Source: Haloarcula sp. DT43 (GTDB taxonomy: Archaea > Halobacteriota > Halobacteria > Halobacteriales > Haloarculaceae). From it: a DNA stretch of 64,000 bases. Of this stretch, positions 2,755-45,143 are shown one piece after another. Made by a program: the position numbers and the translations under genes. The stretch covers positions 1 to 64,000 of the forward strand of contig NZ_JAYMGZ010000003.1 in NCBI RefSeq assembly GCF_037078405.1. Reading direction: 5' to 3'. Position 1 is the stretch's first letter. Each line of letters opens with the position of its first letter. The notes beneath the pieces are model-generated. The model ran no database searches. It was given only the letters and a program-made list of their open reading frames with translations, and had not been told where the DNA came from.

Positions 2755-3542
2755 AATCTGGCACCCTTGTCGGCCGGTTTGGCCTGTGTAGATTCGTTCG
2801 AGTCGGTCCCTTCGCGCAGTTCTTCTGTCTGTATCTCACCGTAGATATCTTCGAGAATCGAGGGTGTGAGTTCCGCGCGCGAGCCAACAAACACCACCGT
2901 ACCGTCTTTCAGGCCGATAAACTGCTCGCCGAACTCCCGGGCGATGTTGACCTGATGGAGGCTCGCCAGCGTCGTGAGGTCGCGCTTCTTGGCAGTCTCA
3001 CGGAAGCACGCCATCACCGTCTCGGCACTGGCGGGGTCCAGACTGGCGACAGGCTCGTCGGCGAGGAGGAGCGCGGGCTGCTGGACCAGCGCGCGTGCGA
3101 TTCCGACGCGCTGTTGCTGGCCCCCGCTCATTCGGTCTACTCTCTGGCCTGCCTCGTCGAGTAACCCGACCGTCTCCAGTGCCTCCAGTGCGAGTTCTCT
3201 GTCCTCTGTGGGCTGTCGGTTGAGCAGGCTCCGAACGAAGCCGGTTCGATTGAATGTCCCAGTCAGGGCGTTATCGTAGGCACTCAGCTCATCGACGAGA
3301 TTGTGCTGCTGAAACACCATCCCGACGTCCGACCGCGAGTTGGTGATTTCCTGGCCGTCGAGATACACGCTCCCGGAGGTGGGTTCGGTCAACCCGTTGA
3401 GGATCCGCAGCAGCGTCGACTTGCCGGCCCCGGACTCGCCGAGCACGACAGCGAAGCTCCCGTCGGGAACCTCGAAGGAGACACCAGATAGGGCTGTCGT
3501 GTCCCCGTACTCTTTGGTCAAATCCTGCACATTCAGGCCCAT
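2751..3542 (-). CDS. phnC: phosphonate-type ABC transporter ATP-binding protein PhnC
   Basis: This 263-residue ATPase powers the PhnCDE importer. The Walker A motif GESGAGKST lies at residues 35-43, the Q-loop is in VGMVFQQHN, the ABC signature is MSGGQQQR near residue 140, the Walker B is LLLADEP near residue 160, and a switch-loop His follows in SLHQVN. The length is normal for PhnC. It begins 6 bp after the phnD stop and overlaps phnE by 4 bp. The last 35 residues are a charged, low-complexity tail (DSNESTQAKPADKG). Base composition is less GC-rich than the genes beyond 5 kb. Family assignment is secure. Confidence 0.94.
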   Translation of the reverse strand: MGLNVQDLTKEYGDTTALSGVSFEVPDGSFAVVLGESGAGKSTLLRILNGLTEPTSGSVYLDGQEITNSRSDVGMVFQQHNLVDELSAYDNALTGTFNRTGFVRSLLNRQPTEDRELALEALETVGLLDEAGQRVDRMSGGQQQRVGIARALVQQPALLLADEPVASLDPASAETVMACFRETAKKRDLTTLASLHQVNIAREFGEQFIGLKDGTVVFVGSRAELTPSILEDIYGEIQTEELREGTDSNESTQAKPADKGARL

Positions 3543-3548
3543 ATACAG

Positions 3549-27752: not shown

Positions 27753-28646
27753 TTACTGCAGATGTCGGAGTAGTTCGTCAGTCACTTCCGGGCGCTCGTG
27801 ATGGACCCAGTGAGACGCGTCGCGGAAGGTCCGTAACTGCCCGTTTTCACAGTAGCCGACGCTCTCGTCGGCCATCGAGGGGAGGAGTGCGATGTCGGCT
27901 TCGCCCCAGCAAATCAGCGTCGGCTGTGAAACGGTGCTGCGGGGCGGGCGCCCCGACCGACGGAACCCGCGGTACCAGTTCACCCTCGGGACGACGCCGG
28001 AGTGCCGCCAGGCCGCCTTGTACCGGTCGAGTGTCGCCTCGTCGAAGGTGCCCGGGTTCGAGGTCACCTCCAGCGATTCGACCATGTTGGCCATGTCGTT
28101 TCGCTCCAGCAGCCACTCGGGTAGCTTCGGCACCTGATAGAACCAGACGTACCAGCTCCGGGCGACCTGTCCGGGACTGACCCGTAGGGTCTCCCGATAC
28201 ACGGTCGGATGTGGAACGTTGAGAATCCCGAACCTGTCGACGGCGGAGGGGTGGCGGAGCGCCAGGTTCCAGGCGACGAACCCGCCGAAGTCGTGGCCGA
28301 CCACGTGGGCCGACTGCCGGCCCTCGCTCCGGATTAGTTCGCGGACGTCCGCAACCAGTTCTTCCTGTCGGTAGGGGTCGATGCCCTCGGGGGCGTCGCT
28401 CAGGTTACAGCCCCGCTGGTCCGGGACGACCACGCGGAAGCCGGCGTCGACCAGCGGGCCTATCTGGTCCCGCCAGCCGTACCAGAAGTCGGGGTGGCCG
28501 TGCAGGAGCACGACAAGCGGGGCGTCGGGGTCGCCGGCTGTCACGGCGTGCAACCGGACGCCGTTGACCTGGTAGTACGTGGACTCGAGGTCCTGTTCGG
28601 CCAGCAACGATGCGTCAGTGTCCGGGTGCGTTGTCGTGACTGGCAT
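27753..28646 (-). CDS. alpha/beta hydrolase, epoxide-hydrolase-like
   Basis: This 297-residue alpha/beta-hydrolase-fold enzyme has the oxyanion motif LLHGHPDFWYGWRDQ near residue 48 (HGxP type). The nucleophile is Asp in VVGHDFGGFVAW near 121, as in epoxide hydrolases and haloalkane dehalogenases rather than Ser esterases. The catalytic His is in DASHWVHHERPE near 278. The cap domain lies between about 155 and 225. It probably opens epoxides or similar electrophiles. It sits between two HTH_10 regulator genes on the same strand. Confidence 0.88.
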   Translation of the reverse strand: MPVTTTHPDTDASLLAEQDLESTYYQVNGVRLHAVTAGDPDAPLVVLLHGHPDFWYGWRDQIGPLVDAGFRVVVPDQRGCNLSDAPEGIDPYRQEELVADVRELIRSEGRQSAHVVGHDFGGFVAWNLALRHPSAVDRFGILNVPHPTVYRETLRVSPGQVARSWYVWFYQVPKLPEWLLERNDMANMVESLEVTSNPGTFDEATLDRYKAAWRHSGVVPRVNWYRGFRRSGRPPRSTVSQPTLICWGEADIALLPSMADESVGYCENGQLRTFRDASHWVHHERPEVTDELLRHLQ

Positions 28647-28864: not shown

Positions 28865-29521
28865 TCAGTGGACGAGTTCGCCGAACACGCGCTCCTCGAC
28901 CTTCCGAAGGTGTTCCCCGACGGTACCGGGAGCGATACCGACGACGTCGCTGACGTCCGCGAGCGACGCCTGCCGGGGCTCGTGATAGTACCCCAGGTCG
29001 ACGGCCGCTTCGAGCACCTCCCGCTGTCGGGCGGTAATCAGCCTCCCGAACGCCGACTCGTCGATCCGGTACTCGCCCGTTTCGAGGACGTCGACCGTCA
29101 CGTAATCGACGTCCGCGACGTGTTCGTACAGCTCTTTGAACGTCTCGTCGGTCCCGACGTAGGTCACCTTGAGGTTGTCCTCTGCGGTGAACCGTATCGG
29201 CGTCTCCACCACCAGGAACGACTCCCGCTGTAGTTCGAGCGCCCCGCGGACCCCCTCCGTGGGTTCGAACTGGCTCACTGCCATCCAGCGGTCCTCGCCG
29301 GCGGTGAGATAGCTACGGACGTGTGGCGACGCCGCCATAATCTGCTCGTATCGCTCCCGGTCCCCGCTCGCCTCGGCGAACAGCAACACGGTGTCGTCGG
29401 CGAGCAGTTCGACGTGGTGAATCGCTCGCCGCTCGATGGAGGGCTCGTCCGACAGGTTTCCGCCGAGCGGATGGAAGGCACCGTCCCCGTTCGGTTTGAC
29501 CAAGACCGTGAGATACCGCAT
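28865..29521 (-). CDS. HTH_10 (bacterio-opsin activator-type) transcriptional regulator
   Basis: This 218-residue regulator has an N-terminal domain of about 155 residues (MRYLTVLVKPNGDGAFHPL, then a beta-rich region with HHVELLADDTVLLFAEASG) and a C-terminal HTH_10 domain. The HTH region contains ITARQREVLEAAVDLGYYH, then ASLADVSDVVGIAPGTVGEHLRKVEERV. Upstream in-frame codons to 30244 overlap the acyl-hydrolase gene on the other strand and are Arg-rich, so the ATG at 29521 is the start. It is paralogous in layout to the regulator at 26483-27163. Confidence 0.9.
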   Translation of the reverse strand: MRYLTVLVKPNGDGAFHPLGGNLSDEPSIERRAIHHVELLADDTVLLFAEASGDRERYEQIMAASPHVRSYLTAGEDRWMAVSQFEPTEGVRGALELQRESFLVVETPIRFTAEDNLKVTYVGTDETFKELYEHVADVDYVTVDVLETGEYRIDESAFGRLITARQREVLEAAVDLGYYHEPRQASLADVSDVVGIAPGTVGEHLRKVEERVFGELVH

Positions 29522-29632: not shown

Positions 29633-30990
29633 ATGGCGTCCCAGCGAACGGTCCCGCGCCGCCGCTTCCTCCGACTGGCCGGACAGACCGGGTCGGTAGC
29701 CCTGACCGGGTGTTCCTCGTCTACGTCCCCAACCATCGAGATGCCGGCGAGCGCGCTGGTCGACGAGCCGATTCCCGTTGCAGTCACCGGCCTGGACCCG
29801 GAGCAGTCGGTGACGCTCCGGAGTCACACGCACGACAGGGGCGGTACCGCATGGGAGTCCAGTGCCGCCTTCGCCGCCGGGGCAGATGGTTCGGTGACGG
29901 TCGGCGCGCAGCGCCCGGACGAGAGCCGGTACTACGACCGAGACGACGGGATGGGGCTGTTCTGGTCGATGCGCCCGGTCGAGACCGGCCCGACCGCACC
30001 GCTCCCGCCCGGCGTCCTGTTCCAGCCACCGACTGAGGCCTTCGAGGTCACACTCACGGCCGAGAGCGGCGGACGGACGCTCCAGAGGCGACGACGACCC
30101 GGCGCATGTATGCACCGGACATCGGGAGTGCCCCGCTCCCCGACGGGCTGGTCGGTGCCGCCTTCCTCCCACCGGGGGACGACCCCGTTCCCGGCGTAAT
30201 CCACCTGCACGGCCACGGCGGGGCCCCGTTCGTCGGCCTCGCACGCCTGCTGGCGTCCCGCGGGTTCGCGGCCCTCGCGCTCCAGTATTTCGGCGACCCG
30301 GACCCGTTATCGGACACGCTCCGGGCGGTCCCGGTCGAGTACGTCACCCGGGCGGTCGAGTGGCTCGGGAGCCACGAACGGGTCGTGGAGGGCGTCGGAC
30401 TGTTCGGGTTCTCGCGGGGCGGGACGCTGGCCTTGCTCGCCGCGAGCCGAACCGACGCCGTCGGCGCAGTCGCCGGGTGGGCCACGAGCGGCGGCGTCTA
30501 CGAGGGCTTCGGCCCGGACCGGACCCCGGCTGGGACCGCCGCGTGGTCGGTCGACGACCGACCGGTGTCGTTCCTGGAACTGGCGGACGCGGACCCGGGA
30601 CCGCCGCCGGCCCCCGGACTACCGCTCTTCGAACCGCCGCTGGACGCCGCGCCGCGGGAGCGCCTTGCCGCGGCCACGGTCCCGGTCGAGGCCGCCGACG
30701 CGCCGATATACCTGGTCTCGGCCGCCGACGACCGGCGGTGGCCGTCTACCCGGCTGTCTGCCCGGGTCGTCGACCGCCTCGCCGGAGCCGGCTACTTACA
30801 CCCCTACGCTCACGACGCCTTCGAGGACGCGGGCCACTACATGCGGCCCCCGTATCTCCCGACCGCTGGCACGACGCGGGACCGGACCGACGTTTACGGT
30901 GGAAGCCCGGCCGCGAACGCGCGTGCCAACGAGACTGCCTGGCGGCGGACGCGGGCGTTCCTGTCCAGGGCACTGCAGACGGCTCCGTGA
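29633..30990 (+). pseudogene. BAAT-family acyl-CoA thioester hydrolase, frameshifted
   Basis: Two frames together make one protein. The first (from ATG 29633) has a Tat signal (PRRRFLRLAG) with lipobox LTGC and the N-terminal BAAT beta-sandwich. It stays in frame up to about 30075. From about 30076 the next frame continues with PEATTTRRMYAPDIG, then the alpha/beta-hydrolase half with HLHGHGG, the nucleophile Ser in GLFGFSRGGTLAL, Asp in SAADDRRWP and His in DAGHYMRPP, ending at 30990. Joining them needs an apparent 1 bp loss (-1 shift) in a GC-rich stretch. It may be a pseudogene, a sequencing error or recoding. The second part could start on its own at ATG 30106. Confidence 0.75.
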
Positions 30991-31979: not shown

Positions 31980-32921
31980 ATGCCTATGGCCGCTGTCGAG
32001 AGAGATGACGGAGTCGTGCCGCGGGCGGACCTGCTCGCGGTCGTGGCGGGTGTCGCGGCGGTGCTGACTGTCGCGTTCACGCCGCTCGGCGAGTGGCGAA
32101 CACTCGCCGTGGTGGTCGGTCTCCCGTTCGTTCTCCTGGGGCCCGGGTACGCGCTCGTCTCGGCTGTGTTCCCGCGGGCGGGCGACGCGGGGCCGGGTCC
32201 GGGCACGTCGTGGATAGCCCGGCTGGTGTTGAGCGCCGCCGGGAGCGTCGTGGTCATCGCCGTCGTGGGCGTCGCGCTCGACTTGACCGTCTGGGGGTTC
32301 CAGCGCGGCCCGGTCGTCGTCGCGCTCGCCGTGCTGACCCTGTCGGCGACGGCTATCGCCTGGTACCGTCGCAAGCAGGTCCCGGCCGACGTGCGGGCAG
32401 GAGCGACCGTCGCGACGGTCCGGGCGCGGACGCGTGCCGCCGTCGCGGGTGACGGGGCGCTCGGTGTCGTCATGACGGTGCTCGTGGTCGTCGTGGCGGC
32501 GGCCGGCGTCGCCGCGGTCGCCGCGGAGTCGTCGTCTCAGCCATCGGTGACGGAGTTTTACGTCCTCGGGCAGGACGAGTCCGGCGACCTGGTCGCGGGG
32601 AGCTACCCGACGGCCCTGACCGCCGGCGAGCCGGTGACGGTCGGTATCGGCGTCGGAACGACCCAGGCGGCGGGGTTCGACGGCACCGTCGCCGCGGCGC
32701 TCGAACGCGTGCGTGTCGACGGCGAGTCGGCCACCGTCACGGAGTCCCAGCCGCTCGGCTCCTTCGACGTGGCTGTCGCGCCCGGCGAGTCGACGGTCAG
32801 ACGCCACACCGTTCGCCCCTCCATGGTCGGCGACCGGCTTCGGCTGACCTACCGGCTCTACGAACGGGGGTCGGAGTCGCCGTTCCGCCGCGTCCAACTC
32901 TGGGTCTCTGTCAGTCGATAG
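31980..32921 (+). CDS. DUF1616-type membrane protein
   Basis: This 313-residue protein has four hydrophobic helices in its first 170 residues (about 18-38, 43-65, 78-104 and 110-126, with another near 160-178) and an extracytoplasmic C-terminal beta domain. The pattern LGPGYALVSAVFP near 55 and the C-terminal FYVLGQDESGDL, then RLTYRLYERG, fit DUF1616 proteins, which are often found in archaeal glycosylation and pilin regions. The start is placed at ATG 31980 because a TATA-like CTTTTAG lies about 22-28 bp upstream. An ATG at 31986 is possible. It opens the surface-glycan region. Confidence 0.75.
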   Translation: MPMAAVERDDGVVPRADLLAVVAGVAAVLTVAFTPLGEWRTLAVVVGLPFVLLGPGYALVSAVFPRAGDAGPGPGTSWIARLVLSAAGSVVVIAVVGVALDLTVWGFQRGPVVVALAVLTLSATAIAWYRRKQVPADVRAGATVATVRARTRAAVAGDGALGVVMTVLVVVVAAAGVAAVAAESSSQPSVTEFYVLGQDESGDLVAGSYPTALTAGEPVTVGIGVGTTQAAGFDGTVAAALERVRVDGESATVTESQPLGSFDVAVAPGESTVRRHTVRPSMVGDRLRLTYRLYERGSESPFRRVQLWVSVSR

Positions 32922-33037
32922 CGGTCACTCGGCGGTTTTCGAGATCGGGCTCGTAACGACCTCTTGACGTGTTGGTGTGGTATCCGATACCTATTTATCC
33001 GGTTTTATTCTACAATTGGTACGTAAACAGTGGGTGT

Positions 33038-34828
33038 GTGGTCCTAACATTGACACAAATAGACAAAAGCACGCGGAGGGGGCAGCAGACACCGTCGGTG
33101 TCACGAACCGTCGTGGAACTCGACGCCGACAGCCGGCTGGTCACGGTCGCCGTCGCGACGGACGGCACCGAACCGCTCCGCGTCTCGTTCAGACAGCCGG
33201 TACCGCCACACCACACGCTCCGGGTGGGAGACGACGGGTCCGTGGACGCCTACGCCGACGGCACGGTGACGGTGACCTACACGGCCGAGCCCGGCTCCGA
33301 CGCGGAGTTTTGCTACCGTATCGACGGGCCGGTCGATTCGGCACTGTCCGAGCCGACGGCGGAGGTGTTGCAGGCGGCCGAGAGCGGACCGGCGTCGCCG
33401 ACGGTGACGTGGGTCGACGCCGAGGGGACCACGACGCCGCTCTCGATGTCTGCCGACACGGTTACCGCACGCACGGACGGCGCGTTGCCGATGATAACCG
33501 GCCGGACGACGCCGGCGGCCGACCCGCTGGCCGGCGTGGCTATCGGCGTCATCCTCACGCCGACCAACGAGGACGCCGTGGTCCGGACCGTCCTCAGGGC
33601 CAGGCGGCGCGGCCACGCCGTCCTCGTCACGACGCAGGGCGTCGACGGCGACGCCGAGACGCTCGAAATACTCGAAACGCTGGGGGCCGTCGTCTCCGCG
33701 CCGCCCTCGAAGTGGGCCTCGCAGTTACAGCTCCACCGGGTGCTATCACAGACCGCCAGAGGGCAGGGTCTCCCGGGTATCGTCCTCCAGACCCGTGACT
33801 GCCCGCGCATCGACTACGAACGGACCGCGACAGCGGCCACGGACGCCGATTACGAGGTCATCGCCATTCCGGAGCTGTGGAACCAGTCGCCGACCAACCC
33901 CACGGTCGTCGTCGGCATCCCGGCGTACAACGCGGCGGACAGCATCGGCTCCGTCGTCGAGAGCGCGCTCCCCTACGCGCAGGAGGTCGTGGTCGTCGAC
34001 GACGGGAGTCACGACGGGACGGCCGACCGCGCCCGGACGGCCGGTGCGACGGTCGTCGTCCACGACCGCAACCGTGGGTACGGCGGCGCGCTCAAGACGA
34101 TATTCCGGGAGGGGGCTGAACGCGACGCCGCTCACCTCGTCGTCATCGACGCCGACGGGCAACACGACCCGGCGGACATTCCGGCCCTGGTCCAGGCACA
34201 GCAACGCGACGAGACGGACATCGTCATCGGCAGTCGCTACGTCGGCGAACGGGACACGAAAGTCCCGTTCGTCCGCTCGGTCGGGCTGGCGGTCATCAAC
34301 AGCCTCACGAACGCCAGCCTCGGCAAGCTCCGCCCGAGCGGCTTCATCCACGATACACAGAGCGGCTACCGCGCGTACAGCCGCATGGCGACGCGCTCGC
34401 TCGCGGCGGACCCGATGATAGGGGACAACATGGGCGCGAGCACCGACATCCTCTATCACGCACACCGCAACCGGCTCAGCGTCGCCGAAGTCGGGACGAC
34501 CATCTCCTACGACGTCGAAAACGGCAGCTCACAGGACTCGTTCTCCCACGGGATGGACCTCCTGCGGAACATCTTCTGGACTGTCGAGTACGGTCGGCCG
34601 CTGCTCATCTTGGGGCTCCCTGGGGCCGTCACGACGCTGGTCGGCGTCGCCGTAGCGATGTGGCTCCTCTCCGGGTACGTCGAGACCGGGACGCTGGCGA
34701 CGGCCCCCCTCGCGGCGGCTATCCTGTTCGCGCTCGGCGGCCTGTTGCTCTGTGTCACGTCGCTGATGATGCACGTGCTGAACGGGCATCCGACGCTCAA
34801 GCGACTGCGCGGCGAGGGCAACAGCTAA
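33038..34828 (+). CDS. membrane-anchored GT2 family glycosyltransferase
   Basis: This protein of about 596 residues has an N-terminal beta-rich domain of unknown role (to about 150), a central alpha/beta segment (ILTPTNEDAVVRTVLRARRRGH near 170), and a GT-A glycosyltransferase domain of the dolichol-phosphate-sugar synthase type. The latter starts at VVVGIPAYNAADS near 288, with VVVVDDGSHDGT, VVIDADGQHDPADIP (DxD-like) near 370 and SGFIHDTQSGYRAYS near 430. Two C-terminal membrane helices lie at about 525-548 and 555-578. It likely transfers a sugar to a lipid carrier. The start is uncertain: the frame opens earlier (GTG 32969), but a TATA-like TATTTATCC at about 32992-33000 favours GTG 33038 or TTG 33050. 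Confidence 0.85.
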   Translation: MVLTLTQIDKSTRRGQQTPSVSRTVVELDADSRLVTVAVATDGTEPLRVSFRQPVPPHHTLRVGDDGSVDAYADGTVTVTYTAEPGSDAEFCYRIDGPVDSALSEPTAEVLQAAESGPASPTVTWVDAEGTTTPLSMSADTVTARTDGALPMITGRTTPAADPLAGVAIGVILTPTNEDAVVRTVLRARRRGHAVLVTTQGVDGDAETLEILETLGAVVSAPPSKWASQLQLHRVLSQTARGQGLPGIVLQTRDCPRIDYERTATAATDADYEVIAIPELWNQSPTNPTVVVGIPAYNAADSIGSVVESALPYAQEVVVVDDGSHDGTADRARTAGATVVVHDRNRGYGGALKTIFREGAERDAAHLVVIDADGQHDPADIPALVQAQQRDETDIVIGSRYVGERDTKVPFVRSVGLAVINSLTNASLGKLRPSGFIHDTQSGYRAYSRMATRSLAADPMIGDNMGASTDILYHAHRNRLSVAEVGTTISYDVENGSSQDSFSHGMDLLRNIFWTVEYGRPLLILGLPGAVTTLVGVAVAMWLLSGYVETGTLATAPLAAAILFALGGLLLCVTSLMMHVLNGHPTLKRLRGEGNS

Positions 34829-34890
34829 ATGCCGTCACCACAGGACTCCAGTACGATGACGGGCGCGCGCTGTTCAGTCGGTGGTCGGCC

Positions 34891-35607
34891 GTGAGCAGGA
34901 CCGAGGTCGCCGCGGGCGGCCGCCTCCGGGACCGGGTCAGTCCCCGGGCGCCGGCCGCTGTCTTTGCGGCTCTGGGCCTCGTCCTCGTCGTGGCCGCCGT
35001 CGCCGTGCCCGCCGCCGAGACGCTGTTGCTCTCGTGGGGCGGGACGGCGCTGTTTCTCGCCGTGCTGTTGCGGTTCGTCTTCACCGGGCCGACGGTCCCG
35101 GCGGCCGTGACGACGGCCGTCTACACCACGATGGCCGACGACGCCCGTCGGCGCGCGCCCGACGCCCCACACCGGTACGTCCCCGGCGACGACGGCGTCT
35201 CGCTCGCCGTCGGCGGGGAGACGTTCGACCCTGTGGGCACGCGACTGCTGGCCGCCACGGAGACACCCGTCGGTGACGGACCGGCCGCGGAGCGGCTCGC
35301 GGTAGTGGTCGATGTCGTGATCAATGAACTGGAACTGGCCGGGCGTGCGAGCGCCACGACCGCAGCGGGCGAGGCGACGGTCACCGTCGTCGGGAGCCGC
35401 GTCGGGACGGCGGCACTGTTCGACCACCCCGTGGCTTCCGTCGTCGGCGTCGCGCTCGCGGACGCCCTCGAAACGGGGGTTCGCGTCGACACCAGTGTCG
35501 AGGACGGGGTGCTCGTGGTCTCCTGCCGGTGGTCACAGCGCGCCGAGGAACTTCTCGACGGTGCGGAGGCCGACGAAGACGGCGAAGACGGCCGCTCCGA
35601 CCAGTAG
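34891..35607 (+). CDS. two-helix membrane protein with acidic C-terminal domain
   Basis: This protein of about 238 residues has two adjacent hydrophobic helices (about 22-44 and 46-64), then a soluble domain of about 150 residues ending in an acidic tail (DGAEADEDGEDG). The domain contains LAVVVDVVINELELAG and VTVVGSRVGTAALFDHPVASVVGVALADAL. It resembles haloarchaeal DUF7982-type proteins, without certainty. GTG 34891 is the best start, because upstream in-frame codons overlap the preceding glycosyltransferase and look unnatural. Its last 75 bp overlap the end of the convergent gene at 35533-35805. Confidence 0.65.
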   Translation: MSRTEVAAGGRLRDRVSPRAPAAVFAALGLVLVVAAVAVPAAETLLLSWGGTALFLAVLLRFVFTGPTVPAAVTTAVYTTMADDARRRAPDAPHRYVPGDDGVSLAVGGETFDPVGTRLLAATETPVGDGPAAERLAVVVDVVINELELAGRASATTAAGEATVTVVGSRVGTAALFDHPVASVVGVALADALETGVRVDTSVEDGVLVVSCRWSQRAEELLDGAEADEDGEDGRSDQ

Positions 35608-35805
35608 CGGCCAGCGCAGACGGGTGCGCCACCCGACGGTGGCGTGGATCGGTGCGGTCAGGGCCGTCACGACGACGAGTCCGACGAAGGCGACGACGAA
35701 GGCTACTTCGACCGTGAGGCGGCCGGCGCTGGCAAGCAGCGCGATACCTGCGAGGGTCCACGCGGCCTGGTACAGCAGGAACTGTCGCTGGCGCGGGGTC
35801 GTCAT
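35533..35805 (-). CDS. small three-helix membrane protein
   Basis: This 90-residue protein has three hydrophobic segments (about residues 13-30, 33-52 and 63-82) and a basic N terminus (MTTPRQRQF). No family is recognised. On the minus strand a TATA-like TTATAC lies about 28 bp before the ATG at 35805. It converges on, and overlaps by 75 bp, the end of the gene at 34891-35607, so both strands of that stretch would be coding. Confidence 0.65.
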   Translation of the reverse strand: MTTPRQRQFLLYQAAWTLAGIALLASAGRLTVEVAFVVAFVGLVVVTALTAPIHATVGWRTRLRWPLLVGAAVFAVFVGLRTVEKFLGAL

Positions 35806-35890
35806 TAGGCTCGCTACGGCACAGGGGGGTATAACCGCACCGACAGCCGGAGCAGCGGGTTCAAGGGCGTTCGCGCCGTCAGTACCGTAG

Positions 35891-36421
35891 ATGTTTCCCT
35901 GGACTCACGCCGCCTTCGGCTACCTCCTCTTTCTCGCGGTCGTGTTCCTGCTCGGCCGACGGCTCTCGAAGGCCGAACTGCTGGCGGTGCTCGTCGGTAC
36001 CCAGCTGGCGGACGTCATCGACAAGCCGCTGGCGTGGTGGTTCAACGCGATACCGTCGGGGCGGTCGCTGGCGCACTCGTTGCTGTTCGTGGTGCCCGTG
36101 AGCGCCGTCGTCGTCGCTGTCGCGTGGCACCGGCACCATCCCGAGGTCGGCCTCGCGTTCGCGTTTGGCTACCTGACCCACCTCCTCGGCGACACCTACG
36201 CGGCCCTCTACTACTGGCGGACCGGGGAGTTCACGTTCCTGCTGTGGCCGGTACTGCCGCCGTACCCCTACGGCGGTTTCGTCGGGTTCGCCGACTTCGC
36301 CGCCGACGTGGAGCTCACCGGGACGCTGGTGGGGCTGTTTCTCGCGGCCGTGGCCGTCGGCGGCGTCTTCCTCGTCCACTTCGCCCGTGCGCCGTGGTGG
36401 CAGGCATCTCGGACGCGGTGA
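35891..36421 (+). CDS. YdjM-like membrane-bound metal-dependent hydrolase
   Basis: This 176-residue integral membrane protein has about four or five helices. It starts with MFPWTHAAFGYLLF, where the His matches the conserved WTHA motif of the YdjM/LexA-regulated membrane hydrolase family. Other family positions are LVGTQLADVIDKPLAW near residue 35, SLAHSLLFVVP near 58 and GYLTHLLGDTY near 95, giving a His/Asp cluster that probably binds metal. Members are predicted phospholipid or glycolipid hydrolases. It lies 40 bp upstream of the epimerase gene on the same strand. Confidence 0.8.
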   Translation: MFPWTHAAFGYLLFLAVVFLLGRRLSKAELLAVLVGTQLADVIDKPLAWWFNAIPSGRSLAHSLLFVVPVSAVVVAVAWHRHHPEVGLAFAFGYLTHLLGDTYAALYYWRTGEFTFLLWPVLPPYPYGGFVGFADFAADVELTGTLVGLFLAAVAVGGVFLVHFARAPWWQASRTR

Positions 36422-36461
36422 GCACCAGCGGGTATTTGACGCGTCCGAGCGAGAGAGAGAC

Positions 36462-37376
36462 ATGGACCAGACTGTCGCCGGGCGGACGGTGCTCGTAACG
36501 GGCGGGGCGGGATTCGTCGGGAGCCACGTCGCCGACGCCCTCTGTCCCGACAACGAGGTGCGAATTCTCGACGACTTTTCGACCGGCGACCGGGCCAACT
36601 GCCCCGACGACGCGACGGTCGTCGAGGGGGACATCCGTGACGAGGCGGCGCTTTCGGCCGCCATCGACGGCGCCGACATCGTGTTCCACGAGGCAGCCCT
36701 CGTGAGCGTCGCCCGCTCCGTCGAGGACCCGACGGCGAGTCACAGCATCAACACCGAGGGGACGCTCGCGGTGCTGGAAGCCGCGCGGCGACAGGACGCC
36801 CGCGTGGTATTCGCGTCCAGCGCCGCCATCTACGGCGCGCCGGCGTCGACGCCGGTGGCCGAGACGGCCCCGAAGCGTCCGGCCTCGCCGTACGGGCTGG
36901 AGAAGCTCTCGGGGGACCACTACTGTCGCCTCTACGCCGACCTCTACGACCTCCCGACGGTCGCGCTGCGCTACTTCAACGTCTACGGCCCCCGCCAGTC
37001 CGGCGGCGACTACGCCGGCGCGATAACCGCCTTCACCGAACAGGCCCGGGCCGGCGGCCCGGTGACGGTCCACGGCGACGGCGACCAGACCCGCGACTTC
37101 GTCAACGTCGCGGACGTCGTGCAGGCGAACCTGCTCGCGGCCACCACCGACGCCACAGGGGAGGCGTTCAACGTCGGCACCGGCTCACAGACGACCATCC
37201 GCCGGGTGGCCGAGGTCATCCGCGACGAGGTGGCTCCGGACGCCGAACTGACCCACGTCGCCCCCCGCGACGGCGACATCCGCCACAGCGTGGCCGACAT
37301 CGACAAAATCGTCGACCGGCTGGGGTACGAGCCGACCGTCACGCTGGCGGACGGCCTCCGGGCGTACCTAGCCTGA
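36462..37376 (+). CDS. NAD-dependent sugar-nucleotide epimerase/dehydratase
   Basis: This 304-residue extended SDR resembles UDP-glucose 4-epimerases. The cofactor motif is GGAGFVGSHVA near residue 15, Asp of DDFSTGDR near 40 binds the adenosine ribose, the catalytic Ser/Thr lies in FASSAAIYG near 117, and YGLEK is the YxxxK motif near 140. RYFNVYGPRQ near 165 and HGDGDQTRDFVNVADV near 205 are typical of the sugar-nucleotide-binding half. It probably supplies UDP-galactose or a related sugar for the surface glycan. The start is the ATG at 36462, since upstream codons are Arg-rich. Its last 9 bp overlap the convergent halocyanin gene. Confidence 0.9.
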   Translation: MDQTVAGRTVLVTGGAGFVGSHVADALCPDNEVRILDDFSTGDRANCPDDATVVEGDIRDEAALSAAIDGADIVFHEAALVSVARSVEDPTASHSINTEGTLAVLEAARRQDARVVFASSAAIYGAPASTPVAETAPKRPASPYGLEKLSGDHYCRLYADLYDLPTVALRYFNVYGPRQSGGDYAGAITAFTEQARAGGPVTVHGDGDQTRDFVNVADVVQANLLAATTDATGEAFNVGTGSQTTIRRVAEVIRDEVAPDAELTHVAPRDGDIRHSVADIDKIVDRLGYEPTVTLADGLRAYLA

Positions 37377-37829
37377 CTCGACGACGACCGTCCCGACCAT
37401 GCCCGACTCGTGCGGGATACAGAAGTAGGGGAACTCCCCGGCCGTCTCGAACGTGTGACTGTATGTTTCGTCGGTGCTGACGCTCCCCTGCGGGTAGGAC
37501 TTCCGGGCGGCGGACTCGCTGTCGAACTCTCCCGACGCGAAGTACGCCGCCCCATCGGGCAGGTCCTCCTCGTAGGCCGTCACGCTGTGGGCGACGGCCC
37601 CGGTCGTCACCCAGTCGACGGTGTCGCCGACGCTGACCGTCAGCGTCTCCGGTTCGAAGTTGAGGCTGTCGGTCATCTCGACGGTGTGAGCGCTCGGTGT
37701 CCCGGTCTCCATCTCCGTCGGCGTCTCCGTCCCCCCTTCCGTCGCGTCCGAACTCGACCCGCCACACCCGGCCACGCCGCCGGTCAGCGCCACACCGCTC
37801 AGCCGTAGTACCGTCCGCCGATTACACAT
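37368..37829 (-). CDS. halocyanin-like blue copper lipoprotein
   Basis: This 153-residue lipoprotein has a Tat-type N terminus (CNRRTVLRLSG) with lipobox Cys22, a Thr/Glu-rich linker of about 25 residues and a plastocyanin-like domain. The four type-1 copper ligands are visible: His81, Cys137, His140 and Met144 (in PYFCIPHESGM). It carries electrons outside the membrane. A segment of about 30 residues around DLPDGAAYFASGEFDSES is typical of haloarchaeal halocyanins. It converges on the epimerase gene with a 9 bp overlap. Confidence 0.92.
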   Translation of the reverse strand: MCNRRTVLRLSGVALTGGVAGCGGSSSDATEGGTETPTEMETGTPSAHTVEMTDSLNFEPETLTVSVGDTVDWVTTGAVAHSVTAYEEDLPDGAAYFASGEFDSESAARKSYPQGSVSTDETYSHTFETAGEFPYFCIPHESGMVGTVVVESG

Positions 37830-37919
37830 ACCTGCTCCTTGGGTGCGAGACGGTTAAGCGTACACCTCGACTGCAACGCTTTTGGTCACACCCGCGAAAC
37901 GGCTACCAACGAAACCCCG

Positions 37920-39872
37920 ATGGTCGCTCTCACTCATGAACGGCGGACGCAGGCGCTTCCGTTCGCCGTCTGTCTGCTCCTCGGCGCGGGACTGCTGGCC
38001 GCGGACCGCCTCAGCCTGCTCCCCCGGCCGACGCTGTTGCGCGCCGGGTTCACCCTCGTCGGGGCCGCAGTGGCGCTTCTACTGTTCGTGCTGTCGCGGG
38101 GCGACCGCCCCGCCCGCTCGCGGCGGGTGCCGCCGAGTCTCGTGACGAAGGCCGTCCTGTTGCTCGCCGGCGGTGGCGTCGTCGCCACGGCGCTGGTGGG
38201 CTCACGGGTCCTGCCGTTCGCGGTCGTCCTCCCGCTGGGACTGGGCGTCGTTGCGCTCCAGCTTCGGGCCGACCCCGCTGCGCCGGCGATACTGACACAG
38301 CTCAGCGCGCTCTTTCTGGCCGGCCGGCTCGGGAAGTACCTCACGACCGGCTTCTACTTCGGCGGCACCGACACCTTCGCTCACGTCGCGGCGGTCGATA
38401 CGCTCCTTCGGACGCGTTCCACGGCGGCGATTCCACACGGCTACGACCTCTATCCGGTGTTTCACTTCCTCGTCGGGACGGTGCGACACGCGACGGGGCT
38501 GCGGAGCTACGACGCGCTCGTCCTGGCTGGCATCGCGCTGTGTACGCTCGTCGTCCCGCTCTCGTACCTGCTGGGCTGGTCGGTGTTTGGCTCACAGCGG
38601 CTCGGACTGACGGCCGCGCTCTCGGTCACAGTCCTCGAATTCTTCTCCTATCACGCGCTGTACTTCTACCCGCAGGCGCTGGCGTGTCTCCTCGTCCTCG
38701 TCGGTATCTACGTCACCAGCCGGCTGCGCTACGCCGCCGACGAGCGGGGCTTTCGCCGACTCTCCGTCTTCGTCGTCGCGCTCGTCGCGACGATGGTCGT
38801 CACCCACCACCTGACGTACGTCCTGTTCGCGCTCGTCGCCGCCGCCGCCGTGCCGGTGGCCCTCGCCCGGCCGTATCTGTTCGACAGCCCGGTACCGGAG
38901 GTGCGGCGGTGGTTCCGGTACCGCTGGCTGTTCCCCGGCGTCGTGGGCGCGGTGCTCCTGCTCGTCTACTGGTCGTACTCCCCGAGCCTCATCACCGTCG
39001 GCATCGTCGAACTGAGCCTCGGCCTCCTGCTCGACGTGGCGACGGTGCCGCCACAGCAGTTGTACACGTACGGGACGGCGCTCCCGGTCGACAGCGTCGC
39101 CCGGGCCGTCGAGTGGCTGCTGACGCCGACCGGGCTGTACGCCGCCGGGCTGTGGGCGGTACTGTTGCTCGCGGGCTACGAGCTGCTCGACAGGCCCCGG
39201 GCGTACCAGCGGGGGTTCACGATGGCCGTCACCGGCCTCGGCCTGTCGGTACTGTTGCTCCCGCTTCCGGTTCCCGTCCCACAGCTAGAGCGGCTGCAGT
39301 TCGTCGTGACGCTGGTCGCTATCTTCCCGCTGGCTGTCGGCCTCCGACGCGTGCTGGCCGTCGACCGGCGGTACGCCGTCGCCGCCGTGGTGTTCGTCGC
39401 CGCGCTGGGCGGCGCGACGGCGTTTACCGTCCTCACGGCCGACGACGTAGCCGACATCTACATCGAGGAACCCCGCGAGCAGGTCTCGATGAGCGGCGAC
39501 CAGTTCCGCGCCGTCCAGACGACGGCTGGGTTCGTCGGCGCGTACGGCGACGGACCGACGGCAACCGACCGCGTGACCAACCGCGCCTTCGAGACGGCCC
39601 GGTTCAACGCCACGGCCGAACTCGACGCCGCGCCGTCCGGTCTGGAGAGCGACGCGACGTACCTGGTCGCCCGCGAGCGCTGGACCTGGAACGTCGTCGC
39701 GCTGGGCCGTGGGCTCCGCGTCGGCGAGCAGGACACCTTCGCCGTCTCCAGGGCCCGGTTCTCCGTCGCGGACGCGACCCGGACCAAGGTGTACACCACG
39801 GACCACACGCGCGTCTACCGGAGCTCGGACGGTTTTGCCGGGCTCTACGGCGAGAACGGCACGAGCCTGTAA
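37920..39872 (+). CDS. polytopic membrane protein, glycosyltransferase-like
   Basis: This 650-residue protein has about 12-13 membrane helices in its first 500 residues and a soluble C-terminal domain of about 140 residues. A luminal loop after the helix near residue 110 (TTGFYFGGTDTFAHVAAVD, then IPHGYDLYPVFHFLVG) contains the Asp and His/Tyr pattern seen in GT-C oligosaccharide or lipid-linked-sugar transferases of the PMT type. The start is placed at ATG 37920, since the upstream 27 codons look non-coding. Its last 28 bp overlap the convergent GT2 gene. It probably transfers a sugar from a lipid carrier outside the membrane, but this is inferred. Confidence 0.75.
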   Translation: MVALTHERRTQALPFAVCLLLGAGLLAADRLSLLPRPTLLRAGFTLVGAAVALLLFVLSRGDRPARSRRVPPSLVTKAVLLLAGGGVVATALVGSRVLPFAVVLPLGLGVVALQLRADPAAPAILTQLSALFLAGRLGKYLTTGFYFGGTDTFAHVAAVDTLLRTRSTAAIPHGYDLYPVFHFLVGTVRHATGLRSYDALVLAGIALCTLVVPLSYLLGWSVFGSQRLGLTAALSVTVLEFFSYHALYFYPQALACLLVLVGIYVTSRLRYAADERGFRRLSVFVVALVATMVVTHHLTYVLFALVAAAAVPVALARPYLFDSPVPEVRRWFRYRWLFPGVVGAVLLLVYWSYSPSLITVGIVELSLGLLLDVATVPPQQLYTYGTALPVDSVARAVEWLLTPTGLYAAGLWAVLLLAGYELLDRPRAYQRGFTMAVTGLGLSVLLLPLPVPVPQLERLQFVVTLVAIFPLAVGLRRVLAVDRRYAVAAVVFVAALGGATAFTVLTADDVADIYIEEPREQVSMSGDQFRAVQTTAGFVGAYGDGPTATDRVTNRAFETARFNATAELDAAPSGLESDATYLVARERWTWNVVALGRGLRVGEQDTFAVSRARFSVADATRTKVYTTDHTRVYRSSDGFAGLYGENGTSL

Positions 39873-40615
39873 CACAGGCTCCGGCACAGGTACGCCACCG
39901 AAAACGGGTGTGGCGAGATGCGGACCGCCCGCCCGAGGTAGGTCACGGCGCGGTCGTACTCCCCGGCCTCGTGACAGGCCAGGCCGAGGTCAGTGTACAG
40001 CTGAGTGTAGTAAATCGGGAGGTACGGCTGGGCCTCCGGGACGCGCTCGCTGACGAGGTAGCCGAAGCGCTTCGCGTGCCGGCGGTACTCGTCGACCGCC
40101 ATCCCGGAGGCCGTCATGCTCTCCCCGTGGCGGCGGCGCTCGAAGAGGTCGGGACAGCAACAGACCCCGCCGTCGCTGGCCGCTTCCAAGACGTACAGCA
40201 GGTCCTCGCCGCGGTCCAGCCCGGTCTCGAAGCGGGTCCCGACCCGGTCGGTGTCGACGAGAATCGAGGAGGTCACCTCCGAGCGGTCCCCCACGAACAC
40301 CTCGTAGACGAAGTCGTCGAGCGTGGTCTTCGGCCCCTCGACGCAGAGGCCAGCGCCCGTCTCCGCCATCCGGTCGAGCTGTCGCGCCAGTTTGTCCGGG
40401 GCCCAGAGGTCGTCGGCGTCGAGGAACGCAACGTACCGGGTGTCGGCCCGGTCTAACCCCGCGTTCCGGGCGTCGGCCGGGCCGGTGTCCACGTCGTCGA
40501 CGACCAGCAGCTCCGTATCGACGGTCTGTGCCGCGACGGTCGCTTTGGCCTCTTCGAGCATCTCCGGCGGCGTGAACCGCTCGCTGTACGGAATGACCAC
40601 GGACACGGTCACCAT
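39845..40615 (-). CDS. GT2 family glycosyltransferase
   Basis: This 256-residue GT-A enzyme has the nucleotide-sugar pattern VSVVIPYSERF near residue 4, LLVVDDVDTGPADARNAGLD at about 35-54 and the DxD motif AFLDADDLW near 67. The C-terminal half has TPR-like features (ACHEAGEYDRAVTYLGRAVRI near 220). It is the last gene of the minus-strand chain 43938 to 39845 and overlaps the preceding GT4 gene by 7 bp. The upstream open frame to 40669 is Arg-rich, so the ATG at 40615 is used. It likely adds one sugar to the surface glycan. Confidence 0.88.
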   Translation of the reverse strand: MVTVSVVIPYSERFTPPEMLEEAKATVAAQTVDTELLVVDDVDTGPADARNAGLDRADTRYVAFLDADDLWAPDKLARQLDRMAETGAGLCVEGPKTTLDDFVYEVFVGDRSEVTSSILVDTDRVGTRFETGLDRGEDLLYVLEAASDGGVCCCPDLFERRRHGESMTASGMAVDEYRRHAKRFGYLVSERVPEAQPYLPIYYTQLYTDLGLACHEAGEYDRAVTYLGRAVRISPHPFSVAYLCRSLCYRLVPFSP

Positions 40616-41805
40616 TCGGCCATCACCGCCTCGTGGATGTCCGTGACGCGGTCGGCGTGGGCGCTCCACGTCCAGTCCTGGTCGAGTAGCCGCCGATGGC
40701 CGGCGGTCCCCATCGCCCGCAGGCGCTCGGGGTCGTCGAACAGGCGGTCAAGCACCCCGGCCAACCGCGTCGGGTCCTTCGGCGGGACCAGCACGCCGGT
40801 CTCGCCGTCGACGACCATCTCGGGGATGCCACCCACCGACGAGGCGACGACCGGGGTCTTCGCCGCCATCGCCTCGTAGAGAACCGTCGGCCGTCCCTCG
40901 GTCCAGCTCGGGAGCACCAGCGCGTCGGCGGCGACCTGCCATCGCCTGAGCGCTACCGGGTCCAGCCGCCACATCGACCGCGCGGGGTGTGGGAGCTCCC
41001 CCAGTCGCTCCAGCAGCCACCACCGCAGGTCGCCCTCGTGGCCGACGGTGACGAGCATCACGTCGTCGCGTTCGAGCGCGCCGACCGCCTCCACCAGTTC
41101 CTTCACGCCCTTCTGTTCGGTGAACGCCCCGACGTACAGCAGGAGCTTCGTGTCGGGGTCGATGCCCAGTTCCCGGCGGATGGCGGCCCGACGGTCGGTC
41201 GGGAACTTCTCCGGGTCCTCCCCGATGGGGACCGTCCGTATCTTCTCCGCGGGCGCGAACCGCCGGGCGACTTCGGCCAGTTCGTCGCTGACGACCATGA
41301 TTCGAGCGGCGTAGTCGATAGTCTCGCGGATGCGGGCCTGAGCCCCGTCGTTGAAACTGTCGAAGTTGTGCAGGTCGACCGCGTGGCTGTTGACCACCAG
41401 CGGCACGTCGTGCTCGCGGCAATACGGGAGAAGGCCGTACCCGTCGAGGTAGACGTCGGAGGTGTGGACCACGTCGTGTGGCGTCCCGAAGGTCCGCTCG
41501 ACGTACCGGGGGATTCGCTTCTGGAGGGAGTCCCCCGACACGTGGTAGAAGTACTGTTTCGGCACCATGTACAGGAAGCGCGGGTAGTGGGCCACGTAGG
41601 TCCCCCAGCGCTCGGTCGCCGGCACCCGCGAGTACTCGGAGTGGGGGCCGACCGGCGGGGCGAACGGCGTCGGCACGACCACGTCGAGGTCGGCGTGGGT
41701 GCGGTTGATGGCGTCGAACGACCGGTGGTTGAACGGCGACCGGACCTGGAGCGGGTGGCTCTGGTGATGGATACAGCAGGCCAGCACGTCGTAGGGGTCG
41801 CTCAT
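40609..41805 (-). CDS. GT4 family glycosyltransferase
   Basis: This 398-residue GT-B enzyme is of the GT4 type. The N-terminal half contains HDVVHTSDVYLDGYGLLPYC near residue 110. The C-terminal half carries LLLYVGAFTEQKGVKELVEA near 222, DALVLPSWTEGRPTVLYEAMA near 295 (ExxxxxE motif) and TPVVASSVGGIPEMVVDGETG. It is a close paralogue of the gene at 42715-43938, with a 100 bp block (41131-41230) identical at 99 positions to 43234-43333. It overlaps the GT2 genes on both sides (4 and 7 bp). Confidence 0.9.
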   Translation of the reverse strand: MSDPYDVLACCIHHQSHPLQVRSPFNHRSFDAINRTHADLDVVVPTPFAPPVGPHSEYSRVPATERWGTYVAHYPRFLYMVPKQYFYHVSGDSLQKRIPRYVERTFGTPHDVVHTSDVYLDGYGLLPYCREHDVPLVVNSHAVDLHNFDSFNDGAQARIRETIDYAARIMVVSDELAEVARRFAPAEKIRTVPIGEDPEKFPTDRRAAIRRELGIDPDTKLLLYVGAFTEQKGVKELVEAVGALERDDVMLVTVGHEGDLRWWLLERLGELPHPARSMWRLDPVALRRWQVAADALVLPSWTEGRPTVLYEAMAAKTPVVASSVGGIPEMVVDGETGVLVPPKDPTRLAGVLDRLFDDPERLRAMGTAGHRRLLDQDWTWSAHADRVTDIHEAVMAEW

Positions 41806-42722
41806 CGTTGCCCCCCGGCGAGGACTCTCAGCCCGAGCACCGACCAGAACGCCAGCCGAGCGAGGTTCTTCGGTCGGAGGACGGTCGCCACGTCGAGGTA
41901 CGCGCCGGCCTCTCCGAAGCGACCCTCGGCGAGGAAGTGGCCGACCAGCCCCATCCGGTGGACCTGCCCGACCGGCACGCCCCGCGCTTCGAGGGCGGCG
42001 ACGAGGGCGGCGTTCCGTTCGAGGTAGCGGCGGTCGTTCGCGGCGTAGGCCTCCGCGGGGGCGTCGCCGGTGAAGTGTGTCACGGCCAGCGGCTCGTCGA
42101 CGTAGGCCAGTTTCCCCGCGGCGAGGACCCGCAGGACCAGGTCCCAGTCCTCGTAGATGGACAGCCCTTCGTCGAACCCGCCCGCCGACTCGACCGCCTC
42201 GCGCTCGACGAGCAGCGTCGACCCCGGCCCCATGAACACCTGCAACGACAGCAGCGCCTCGGCCAGTTCCCGGCCGCCCTCGCGTGGCGCGGCCGACCGA
42301 AAGAGCCGCTCGGAGACGACGGCGGCGAGCCGGCCGAGCGGGGAGAGGCCAGCGGCGGTCACGTCGCAGTACGCACCGACCCACTCCTCGCCCCGGCCGT
42401 CAAGGGACGCGAGCTGGCGCTCCAGTTTCCGGGGGAGCCACTCGTCGTCGGAGTCGAGGAAGGCGACGTACTCGCCGGCGGCCACCTCGACGCCGGTGTT
42501 GCGGGCGGCGCTGACACCGCGGTTCGTCCCGTGGGTGAGCACCCGGACCCGCTCGTCGTCGTACGCCTCGGCAACAGCCGCGGTGTCGTCGTCGCTGCCG
42601 TCGTCGACGACGACCACCTCGATGTCGCTGACGGTCTGGGCCAGCGCGCTGTCGACCGCCCGGCCCACCACGTCGCCGCGTTCGTACGCCGGAATCACGA
42701 CGCTGACCCGTGGCTCAGGCAT
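41802..42722 (-). CDS. GT2 family glycosyltransferase
   Basis: This 306-residue GT-A enzyme has the motifs VSVVIPAYERGD at residue 6, VVVVDDGSDDDT near 36 and the DxD motif AFLDSDDEWLPRKLE near 90. GPGSTLLVEREAVESAGGFDEGLSIYEDWDLVLR near 160 is the acceptor side typical of GT2. A TPR-like C-terminal segment (HFLAEGRFGEAGAYLDVATVLRP) matches that of the GT2 at 39845-40615. It overlaps the upstream GT4 gene by 8 bp and the downstream GT4 gene by 4 bp. Confidence 0.89.
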   Translation of the reverse strand: MPEPRVSVVIPAYERGDVVGRAVDSALAQTVSDIEVVVVDDGSDDDTAAVAEAYDDERVRVLTHGTNRGVSAARNTGVEVAAGEYVAFLDSDDEWLPRKLERQLASLDGRGEEWVGAYCDVTAAGLSPLGRLAAVVSERLFRSAAPREGGRELAEALLSLQVFMGPGSTLLVEREAVESAGGFDEGLSIYEDWDLVLRVLAAGKLAYVDEPLAVTHFTGDAPAEAYAANDRRYLERNAALVAALEARGVPVGQVHRMGLVGHFLAEGRFGEAGAYLDVATVLRPKNLARLAFWSVLGLRVLAGGQR

Positions 42723-43938
42723 CGATGACCCTCCGGTGGACCGCAGCCAGCCGCTCGCCGTGGCGGGTCCACGTCCACTCGTTGTCCAGCAGGCGCTGTA
42801 GGCCCGCCGCACCCATCTCACGCAGTCGGTCGGGGTCGTCCAGCAGGTGGTCCAGCGCCTCGGTCAGCGCCGCGGCGTCGGCGGGCGGAACCAGCACGCC
42901 GGTCTCGCCGTCGACGACCATCTCGGGGATGCCGCCGACGTTCGAGGCCAGCACGGGCGTCTCGGCGGCCATCGCCTCGTAGATGACTGTCGGCCGCGCC
43001 TCGAAGTAGCTCGGGAGGACGAGGAGGTCCGCCGCCACCTGTAGCCGCCTGACGGCGACGGGGTCGAGCTCCCAGTAGGCGTGGGCGGGATGGCGCAGTT
43101 CGCCCAGTCGGTCGAGGAACCACCAGCGGAGCGCGCCGCCGTGGCCGACGGCCGCGACGCTCACGTCCGTCCGGTCTAAGCCCTCCAGGGCGGCCGCGAG
43201 CTCCCGGACGCCCTTCTCCTTCTCGAAGCGACCGACGTACAGCAGGAGCTTCGTGTCGGGGTCGATGCCCAGTTCCCGGCGGATGGCGGCCCGGCGGTCG
43301 GTCGGGAACTTCTCCGGGTCCTCCCCGATGGGGAGCGTCTCGACCTTGCTCGCGTCGGTGAAGGTGCGGGCGAGGTCGGCCAGTTCGTCGCTGACGGTCA
43401 GGACGGCCGACGCGTAGTCGATGGTCTCGCGGATGTGGGACTGGACGGTGTCGTTGAACCGGTCGAAGTTCTTGAGGTCCCCGGCGTGTGAGAGCGCGAC
43501 CAGCGGGATGTCGTGGCGTCGACAGTACGTGAGCACGCCGTAGCCGTCGAGATAGAACCCACAGGTGTGGACCACGTCGTGTGGCGTCTCGAAAGTCCGC
43601 TCGACGTAGCGAGCCACGCGTTTCCGGACGGAGCGCCCGGAGTAGTGATAGAGGTAGCGTTTCGGCAGGGCGTAGAGGAACCGGGGGTAGTGGACCTCGT
43701 AGGACCCCCATCGCTCGGTCTTCGGGACGCGCCGGTACTCGGAGAAGGGGCCGACCGGCGGGGCGTAGGGCGTCGGCGACACTACGTCGAGGTCTACCCC
43801 GGTTCGGTTGAGCGCGTCGAACGAGCGCTGATTGAACGGCGTCCGAACGGGGAAGACGTGGCTCGGGTGTTCCGTCGCACACCCGAGGACGCGGTAGGAC
43901 GGCTGGGAGTCGGATTGTGAGGTGGTTTCGTCTGACAT
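42715..43938 (-). CDS. GT4 family glycosyltransferase
   Basis: This 407-residue GT-B enzyme is paralogous to the product of 40609-41805 throughout its length. Shared landmarks are FNQRSFDALNRT near residue 36, TPHDVVHTCGFYLDGYG near 118, LLLYVGRFEKEKGVREL near 230, LLVLPSYFEARPTVIYEAMA near 303 and GGIPEMVVDGETGVLVPP. It is the first gene of the four-gene glycosyltransferase chain on the minus strand. The gene after it starts 8 bp before its end. Its own promoter lies in the 186 bp gap before the divergent GT2 gene. Confidence 0.9.
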   Translation of the reverse strand: MSDETTSQSDSQPSYRVLGCATEHPSHVFPVRTPFNQRSFDALNRTGVDLDVVSPTPYAPPVGPFSEYRRVPKTERWGSYEVHYPRFLYALPKRYLYHYSGRSVRKRVARYVERTFETPHDVVHTCGFYLDGYGVLTYCRRHDIPLVALSHAGDLKNFDRFNDTVQSHIRETIDYASAVLTVSDELADLARTFTDASKVETLPIGEDPEKFPTDRRAAIRRELGIDPDTKLLLYVGRFEKEKGVRELAAALEGLDRTDVSVAAVGHGGALRWWFLDRLGELRHPAHAYWELDPVAVRRLQVAADLLVLPSYFEARPTVIYEAMAAETPVLASNVGGIPEMVVDGETGVLVPPADAAALTEALDHLLDDPDRLREMGAAGLQRLLDNEWTWTRHGERLAAVHRRVIDA

Positions 43939-44094
43939 GTGGTGGTCGTCGCTGGGCGACGGTCGAGTAGGTTCGTCCTACCGTACGCTGAGTCCGGTGT
44001 TATGCTTTCCGGGGCGGCGACCGCTGCTCGGTCCGACTGGCAGCGCTCTCGTCTGCGGTTGCCGGCCTGTGGATGGGCTAGCCTACCGACAGCG

Positions 44095-44099
44095 TTATT
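44095..44099 (+). promoter_or_regulatory. TATA-like box of GT2 gene
   Basis: TTATT is centred 27 bp before the GTG at 44124, which supports this GTG as a leaderless start. Confidence 0.45.
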
Positions 44100-44123
44100 C
44101 ACGGACATCGCGAGAGATAGGCC

Positions 44124-45143
44124 GTGACAGGACAGCAACGCGGCGACGCCGTCGACCCGCTGGTGTCGGTCGTCGTCGTCACCTACAACTCCGGGCGGAC
44201 CGTCGGCGAGACGCTGGCGTCGCTGGTAGCTCAGACCTACCCCGACGACCGCTACGAGATACTCGTCGTCGACGGCGGCAGCGACGACGACACCGCGGCC
44301 GTGGCCGCCGAGTACGGCGCGGCCTTCCATACCGTCGACGGCGGGACAATCGGCGCGTGCCGGAACCGCGGCGTCGAGGTGGCCGCCGGCGAGTACGTCG
44401 CCTTCACCGACTCGGACTGTGCCGTCCCCGCGACGTGGCTCCGCGCCCACGTCGAGCGAATCGCGGACACGGACGACCACATCGCCGGCGTCGGCGGCCC
44501 GAACCGGCCGTTCCCGGACGACCCCGCTTTTGCGAAGTTGGTCGGGAGCCTCCAGGGGACGGTGTTCGGGTCGGGCGGGTCGCCGCAGTCACACGCCATC
44601 GACCGGGTGCGGGAGGTCCGGTCGGTCGCGTGCTGTAACGTCCTCTACGACGCGGCTGTGTTCGATGAGCACCGCTACGACGGGGAGATAAACGTCGGCG
44701 AGGACGCGGAGTTTCACTTCCGGCTGAGCGAGGCCGGCTACCGCTTCGTCTTCGACCCGTCGATTGCCGTCTCGCACCACCTCTCGCCGGACTTCGGGTC
44801 GTTCTGCAAGAAGGGGCGCTCGTACGGCTACGCCATGGCGCGCATCCAGCGCCGTCACCGGAAAGTCGTCCGGTGGTACTCCGCGCTCCCGTCCCTGGCG
44901 CTCGGCGGCGGCACGGCGGCGGCGCTGGCGGACCTGGCGCGCCGGAAGGCCCGATACCTCCCCCTGCTCGCCCTGGCCTACCTCCTGGTCAGCGGCTACG
45001 CGACGGCGCAGGTCTACCGTGACAGACGGAGCCCGCTGGCCCTGCTCGTCCCGGTCATGCTCGCGGCCCAGTACGGCTACTACGGCGTCGGCTTCCTCGA
45101 AGGCCTGACCGCGCCTGACCCCGTCCCGCAGGAACTCCCCTAG
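44124..45143 (+). CDS. GT2 family glycosyltransferase with C-terminal membrane segments
   Basis: This 339-residue GT-A enzyme starts at GTG, as its TATA-like box supports. Motifs are VSVVVVTYNSGRTVGETLASL near residue 14, ILVVDGGSDDDT near 45, FTDSDCAVPATW near 91 and INVGEDAEFHFRLSEAGYRF near 190. After residue about 250 there are two or three hydrophobic helices (LPSLALGGGTAAALADLA and then LPLLALAYLLVSGYAT), so the protein is probably membrane-bound. It converges on, and overlaps by 4 bp, the GINT1-like gene. Confidence 0.88.
   Translation: MTGQQRGDAVDPLVSVVVVTYNSGRTVGETLASLVAQTYPDDRYEILVVDGGSDDDTAAVAAEYGAAFHTVDGGTIGACRNRGVEVAAGEYVAFTDSDCAVPATWLRAHVERIADTDDHIAGVGGPNRPFPDDPAFAKLVGSLQGTVFGSGGSPQSHAIDRVREVRSVACCNVLYDAAVFDEHRYDGEINVGEDAEFHFRLSEAGYRFVFDPSIAVSHHLSPDFGSFCKKGRSYGYAMARIQRRHRKVVRWYSALPSLALGGGTAAALADLARRKARYLPLLALAYLLVSGYATAQVYRDRRSPLALLVPVMLAAQYGYYGVGFLEGLTAPDPVPQELP

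Follow-up and report, generated by a model that had tools for sequence, protein, structure and literature searches.

The best-described relatives of the gene analysed here are the type I acyl-CoA thioesterases of the ACOT/BAAT family, which includes human ACOT2 (3hlk), ACOT4 (3k2i) and BAAT, and in which a PF04775 N-terminal domain and a PF08840 catalytic domain with a Ser (or Cys)-Asp-His triad lie in one reading frame. An excerpt of PMC6934887 gives the triad of human BAAT as Cys235, Asp328 and His362. A search of a limited set of papers found none on archaeal BAAT or acyl-CoA thioester hydrolases. Two archaeal systems offer further points of comparison. Most haloarchaeal lipoproteins are predicted Tat substrates, as stated in an excerpt of PMC2945643, and excerpts of PMC8211752 describe -1 frameshifting in fucA1 of Sulfolobus solfataricus at an A-rich slippery site with a putative stem-loop, report that -1 frameshifting has been suggested for viruses of halophilic archaea, and note expression of some archaeal genes despite their disruption. 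The locus presented here shares features with each of these systems, in that a hydrolase of the ACOT/BAAT type, with a signal resembling those of Tat lipoproteins, is split between two overlapping frames.

The locus lies in a 64-kb stretch of DNA (hereafter the window) that forms the start of a 624-kb contig in a haloarchaeal assembly of 3.75 Mb in 19 contigs, with an assembly completeness of 99.88%. Its features, and those of the adjoining genes, are as follows.

29633-30199, plus strand: N-terminal ORF of 188 aa, with a Tat-lipoprotein-like signal and a BAAT N-terminal domain, and an out-of-frame tail after about 30082.
30037-30990, plus strand: open frame of the C-terminal part, with a BAAT / acyl-CoA thioester hydrolase C-terminal domain.
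29657-29713, plus strand: twin-arginine motif RRRFLR (29657-29674) and lipobox-like LTGC (29702-29713).
30082-30085, plus strand: frame break, net one base short of the one-frame orthologues, placed by a codon-level display against L023-L027 and by the ends of alignments.
30412-30837, plus strand: catalytic residues (Ser codon 30412, Asp pair 30727-30732, His codon 30835), aligned to the ACOT2/ACOT4 motifs.
28865-29521, minus strand: divergent HTH_10 (HVO_0513-type) regulator (PF24278, PF04967), sharing 71% identity with a protein of Haloarcula halophila.
27753-28646, minus strand: alpha/beta hydrolase (Abhydrolase_1, PF00561), which is a neighbour of the regulator also in the same-genus genome G013 and in Haloarcula halophila.

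The two halves lie in different plus-strand frames and both carry clear domain assignments, which bears out the initial annotation's description of a BAAT N-terminal domain and a hydrolase domain encoded in separate frames. PF04775 was found in the N-terminal ORF at residues 44-147 (69.3 bits against a cut-off of 27, E 3.5e-19), and PF08840 in the C-terminal frame (96.6 bits against a cut-off of 20.9, E 2.8e-27). The C half also matched the human structures of ACOT4 (E 6.2e-29) and ACOT2 (E 7e-28), and the alignment with their catalytic domains and Ser-Asp-His motifs confirmed that the triad is intact, with serine at the position that is cysteine in human BAAT, according to the excerpt of PMC6934887. 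The window copy therefore has both domains and the triad of the ACOT/BAAT family, and because the two domains sit in different frames it is a broken member of that family. Searches with PF08840 and PF04775 returned no second copy in the window's own genome. The initial annotation had further described both parts as well kept in codon use, a description that holds insofar as GC3 within the gene is high in both frames (0.77-0.93 for the N frame and 0.80-0.93 for the C frame, apart from a last C-frame window of 0.67 that spans the stop), but GC3 near 0.9 is reached by other frames too, and a small and weak frame model recognised coding sequence in the C half but failed to do so in the N half.

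Unlike ACOT2 and ACOT4, the archaeal protein begins with a Tat-lipoprotein-like signal, in addition to its gene being broken. By motif, the window ORF has the order characteristic of haloarchaeal Tat lipoproteins, a twin-arginine motif followed by a lipobox cysteine, and a loose regular expression for the two matched 18 of the 38 homologue loci described below. Because RRRFLR and LTGC are both present, the intact protein is more likely to be a membrane-anchored lipoprotein than a freely exported enzyme, which retains the Tat-type export proposed in the initial annotation and makes release from the cell the less likely outcome. Since most haloarchaeal lipoproteins are predicted Tat substrates (PMC2945643), the product of an intact gene would be expected at the outer surface of the membrane. 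Hydrolysis of acyl-CoA is improbable there, and we regard the intact protein as a putative ester or thioester hydrolase.

The position and direction of the break were established by comparison with homologues. We examined 38 loci, made up of 11 same-genus matches, a locus from Halegenticoccus soli (L023), and 26 of the higher-ranked matches from a search of 392 genomes of the order. In the six closest homologues (57-68% identical; L023-L028) both halves lie in a single frame. Codon by codon, the window has two nucleotides where five of these orthologues (L023-L027) have one codon, and it is thus net one base short, in keeping with the -1 sense proposed for the break. When the whole N ORF was used as the query, the match to each of the six stopped at residue 150, corresponding to 30082, and the C match begins earlier in L028, where the two matches overlap, and at 30085 in the other five. 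These limits fall at the join that had been placed at 30075-30085. In two further loci (L035 and L045) the N-ORF match continues beyond residue 150, where the ORF is out of frame, and this extension is weak and gapped. The site is GC-rich, and neither half contains an in-frame stop. The break exists in the assembled sequence.

The same comparison identifies the ancestral arrangement. An N-half match (E 0.01, whole N ORF) was found in 25 of the 38 loci, and in all 25 its frame is that of the C half; a shorter query ending at 30082 matched 24 of the 38, and no match to the whole N ORF was obtained at E 0.01 in the other 13. At least 120 open codons lie upstream of the C match in 37 of the 38 loci, the exception being L013. 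In-frame stops were flagged in five rows (L004, L032, L045 and those of G161 and G231), and in the first three, which were viewed, they sit at the C-terminal end. The closest known relatives include plasmid-borne genes of Halorussus vallis (NZ_CP100001.1, H21; 67% identity over the window's catalytic part) and Halorussus halophilus (NZ_CP044524.1, H22; 61%), both labelled 'acyl-CoA thioesterase/bile acid-CoA:amino acid N-acyltransferase'. Both are matched by the N half too and, unlike the window, carry the halves in one open frame (presumably L025 and L026). An ancestral pair of distinct genes is rejected on the strength of the one-frame orthologues among the loci examined, and none of the 25 loci with an N-half match has the two-gene layout that the initial annotation had named as the counter-case.

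A -1 relation between two overlapping ORFs is also what fucA1 shows in the excerpts of PMC8211752, and the direction of the break together with the 30037-30199 overlap would permit a programmed -1 shift that fuses the halves into one enzyme, for which that source supplies archaeal precedents. Unlike fucA1 as described there, however, the window lacks both an A-rich slippery heptamer and any unusual stem-loop. A search restricted to canonical sites found no heptamer of the X-XXY-YYZ type in 30030-30199, RNA folding downstream, modelled without pseudoknots, was ordinary relative to shuffled sequence (z of -0.40 and 0.23, and 1.17 across the join), and the break occurs in none of the 25 testable orthologues. 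We therefore consider programmed frameshifting very improbable, and nothing was found in favour of any unusual read-through by the cell, an idea that is poorly supported. The initial annotation's three options of a recent break, a sequencing error or recoding are accordingly narrowed to the first two. More generally, recoding need not be the explanation when two ORFs of a GC-rich archaeon overlap in a -1 relation.

The reading that we somewhat favour is that the window holds a young frameshift pseudogene, derived from an accessory gene that the cell can do without and that the genus is losing. The ancestor would have been an ordinary undivided gene encoding a thioesterase-like ACOT/BAAT hydrolase with a Ser-Asp-His triad, exported by the Tat route and anchored by lipid, and a recent loss of one base at 30082-30085 would have broken it. 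Translation from 29633 would then yield about 150 proper residues, comprising the signal and the N domain, followed by 38 wrong residues up to a stop at 30197-30199, so that the active site would be absent from the product of this frame. On this reading the deletion would be present in the cell's DNA and the product would be inactive.

Tests of decay in the C half gave no sign of relaxed selection since the break, whether by relative rate or by dN/dS. Measured against five outgroups, the numbers of unique changes in the window and in intact L024 were 28:43, 28:37, 31:38, 33:33 and 31:28, with no excess in the window, and the dN of 0.224 and dS of 0.68 between the C half and L024 lie within the range of intact pairs. 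At columns invariant in six orthologues the window is changed at 14 of 129. By the corresponding count, intact L024 departs from the invariant residue at 17 of 132 columns and the other five orthologues at 1 to 6; because the window resembles intact L024, these changes are no mark of decay. The lack of excess amino-acid change implies that the break is either recent or an error in the sequence, and the absence of further decay fits an assembly error as well as it fits a recent mutation.

An assembly or sequencing error that dropped one base, with an intact one-frame gene in the organism, is accordingly a serious possibility, which we hold to be less probable than a pseudogene. It would account for a gene with no decay beyond one base, with its triad intact, no in-frame stops and no excess of amino-acid change, and the site is GC-rich. 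On the other side, homopolymers of four or more bases are absent from 30031-30130, the completeness of the assembly is high, the gene has decayed in a congener as well, and comparator genes in the same assembly are free of similar breaks. For this last control, ORFs of a same-genus genome (G016) were compared with 120 kb of chromosome, 12 of 85 being dropped for want of a match at 70% identity. Among the 73 chromosomal genes compared, 65 keep a single frame across 90% or more of their length, and none of the remaining eight, when viewed, has a frame change inside the gene. In three of these the change lies upstream of a conserved Met, pointing to over-extended comparator ORFs; one gene is about 1 kb longer in the window's genome, in the same frame and with no stop; one runs off the end of the stretch; and three are short by only 8 to 21 N-terminal residues. 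Halobaculum lipolyticum coding sequences compared with the window added 14 genes, all 14 in one frame (from 17 features in the stretch). Altogether the 87 comparator genes, over about 89 aligned kb (75.0 + 14.4), yielded no internal frameshift. At the 95% bound this zero count is compatible with a rate of about one frameshift per 30 kb, the comparison has little sensitivity close to gene ends, and the break was itself picked from 64 kb. This result makes an assembly error less likely, and our lean towards a real recent mutation is a mild one. If the base was lost in assembly, the consequence is a corrected annotation. Separately, an apparent split was seen in one comparator ORF that overlaps an opposite-strand neighbour, and was ascribed to the ORF being spurious.

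A further alternative is that the break is tolerated, the C half being made alone as a signal-less cytoplasmic hydrolase. The first ATG of the C-terminal frame, at 30106, stands at the start of the catalytic part and would give a protein of 294 aa. A homologue without a BAAT N-terminal domain does exist in a 307-codon open frame (L013, G026:C12), and the search of the order returned additional hits whose open frames are around 300 codons long. The L013 layout is however the sole one of its kind among the 38 loci examined, the evidence for the putative start in the window consists of its ATG, and a signal-less form would belong to a different compartment. We consider this highly unlikely, and slightly more doubtful still is the specific scenario in which a single-base loss removed the signal and N domain and left a C half that starts at ATG 30106 and functions as a hydrolase in the cytoplasm. 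Were a stand-alone C half real, it would represent a one-step change of compartment.

The C half was matched at E 1e-20 or better in 93 of 392 sampled genomes of the order, including the window's own, and in 38 of 95 genera, and at E 0.001 in 7 of the 31 other genomes of the same genus, always at 44% identity or less. The distribution is patchy, and because the window copy is closer to those of other families (57-68%) than to those of its own genus (at most 44%), it suggests transfer between lineages. No near-identical copy of the locus was found in the 32 genomes of the genus (own included) or in plasmid records, and a search with 12 proteins of the window found no counterpart of its neighbouring genes in the stretches around the close homologues L023, L061-L063, L065 and L066.

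In G013, DNA 75% identical to window positions 29657-29821 represents an N-terminal relic, in which the start, an arginine-rich FLRL motif and the lipobox lie in one frame and the match then passes into another frame and fades out. No C-half match was found within 16 kb around this relic, nor genome-wide at E 0.001. Upstream of the relic lie the same alpha/beta hydrolase and HTH_10 regulator, with an NADH-quinone oxidoreductase subunit D-like gene between them, and the hydrolase, the regulator and the subunit D gene are all present in Haloarcula halophila. In the same-genus genome G014 there was no BAAT match in the 15 kb searched and no C-half match genome-wide. At the corresponding locus in related genomes the gene is therefore either decayed or missing, and the truncated, frame-broken relic near the same regulator in G013 indicates that it is undergoing loss in the genus. 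Taken together with this relic, the window illustrates on a small scale how an accessory surface enzyme is lost, in a genus that is most likely Haloarcula.

Two observations were made alongside this comparison. The alpha/beta hydrolase beside the G013 relic (L064, G013:C1:590000-606000, positions 3388-4250) is matched in two different frames close to its C terminus, and may be broken too or reflect a sequence error. Within the window, positions 33088-44000 share 80% DNA identity with a plasmid of Halobaculum lipolyticum, in a match covering 45% of a 24-kb query (20000-44000), and at the protein level the set common to both spans about 32106-45140 and includes glycosyltransferases, an epimerase and a DUF1616 protein; this shared segment is perhaps an exchanged polysaccharide cluster.
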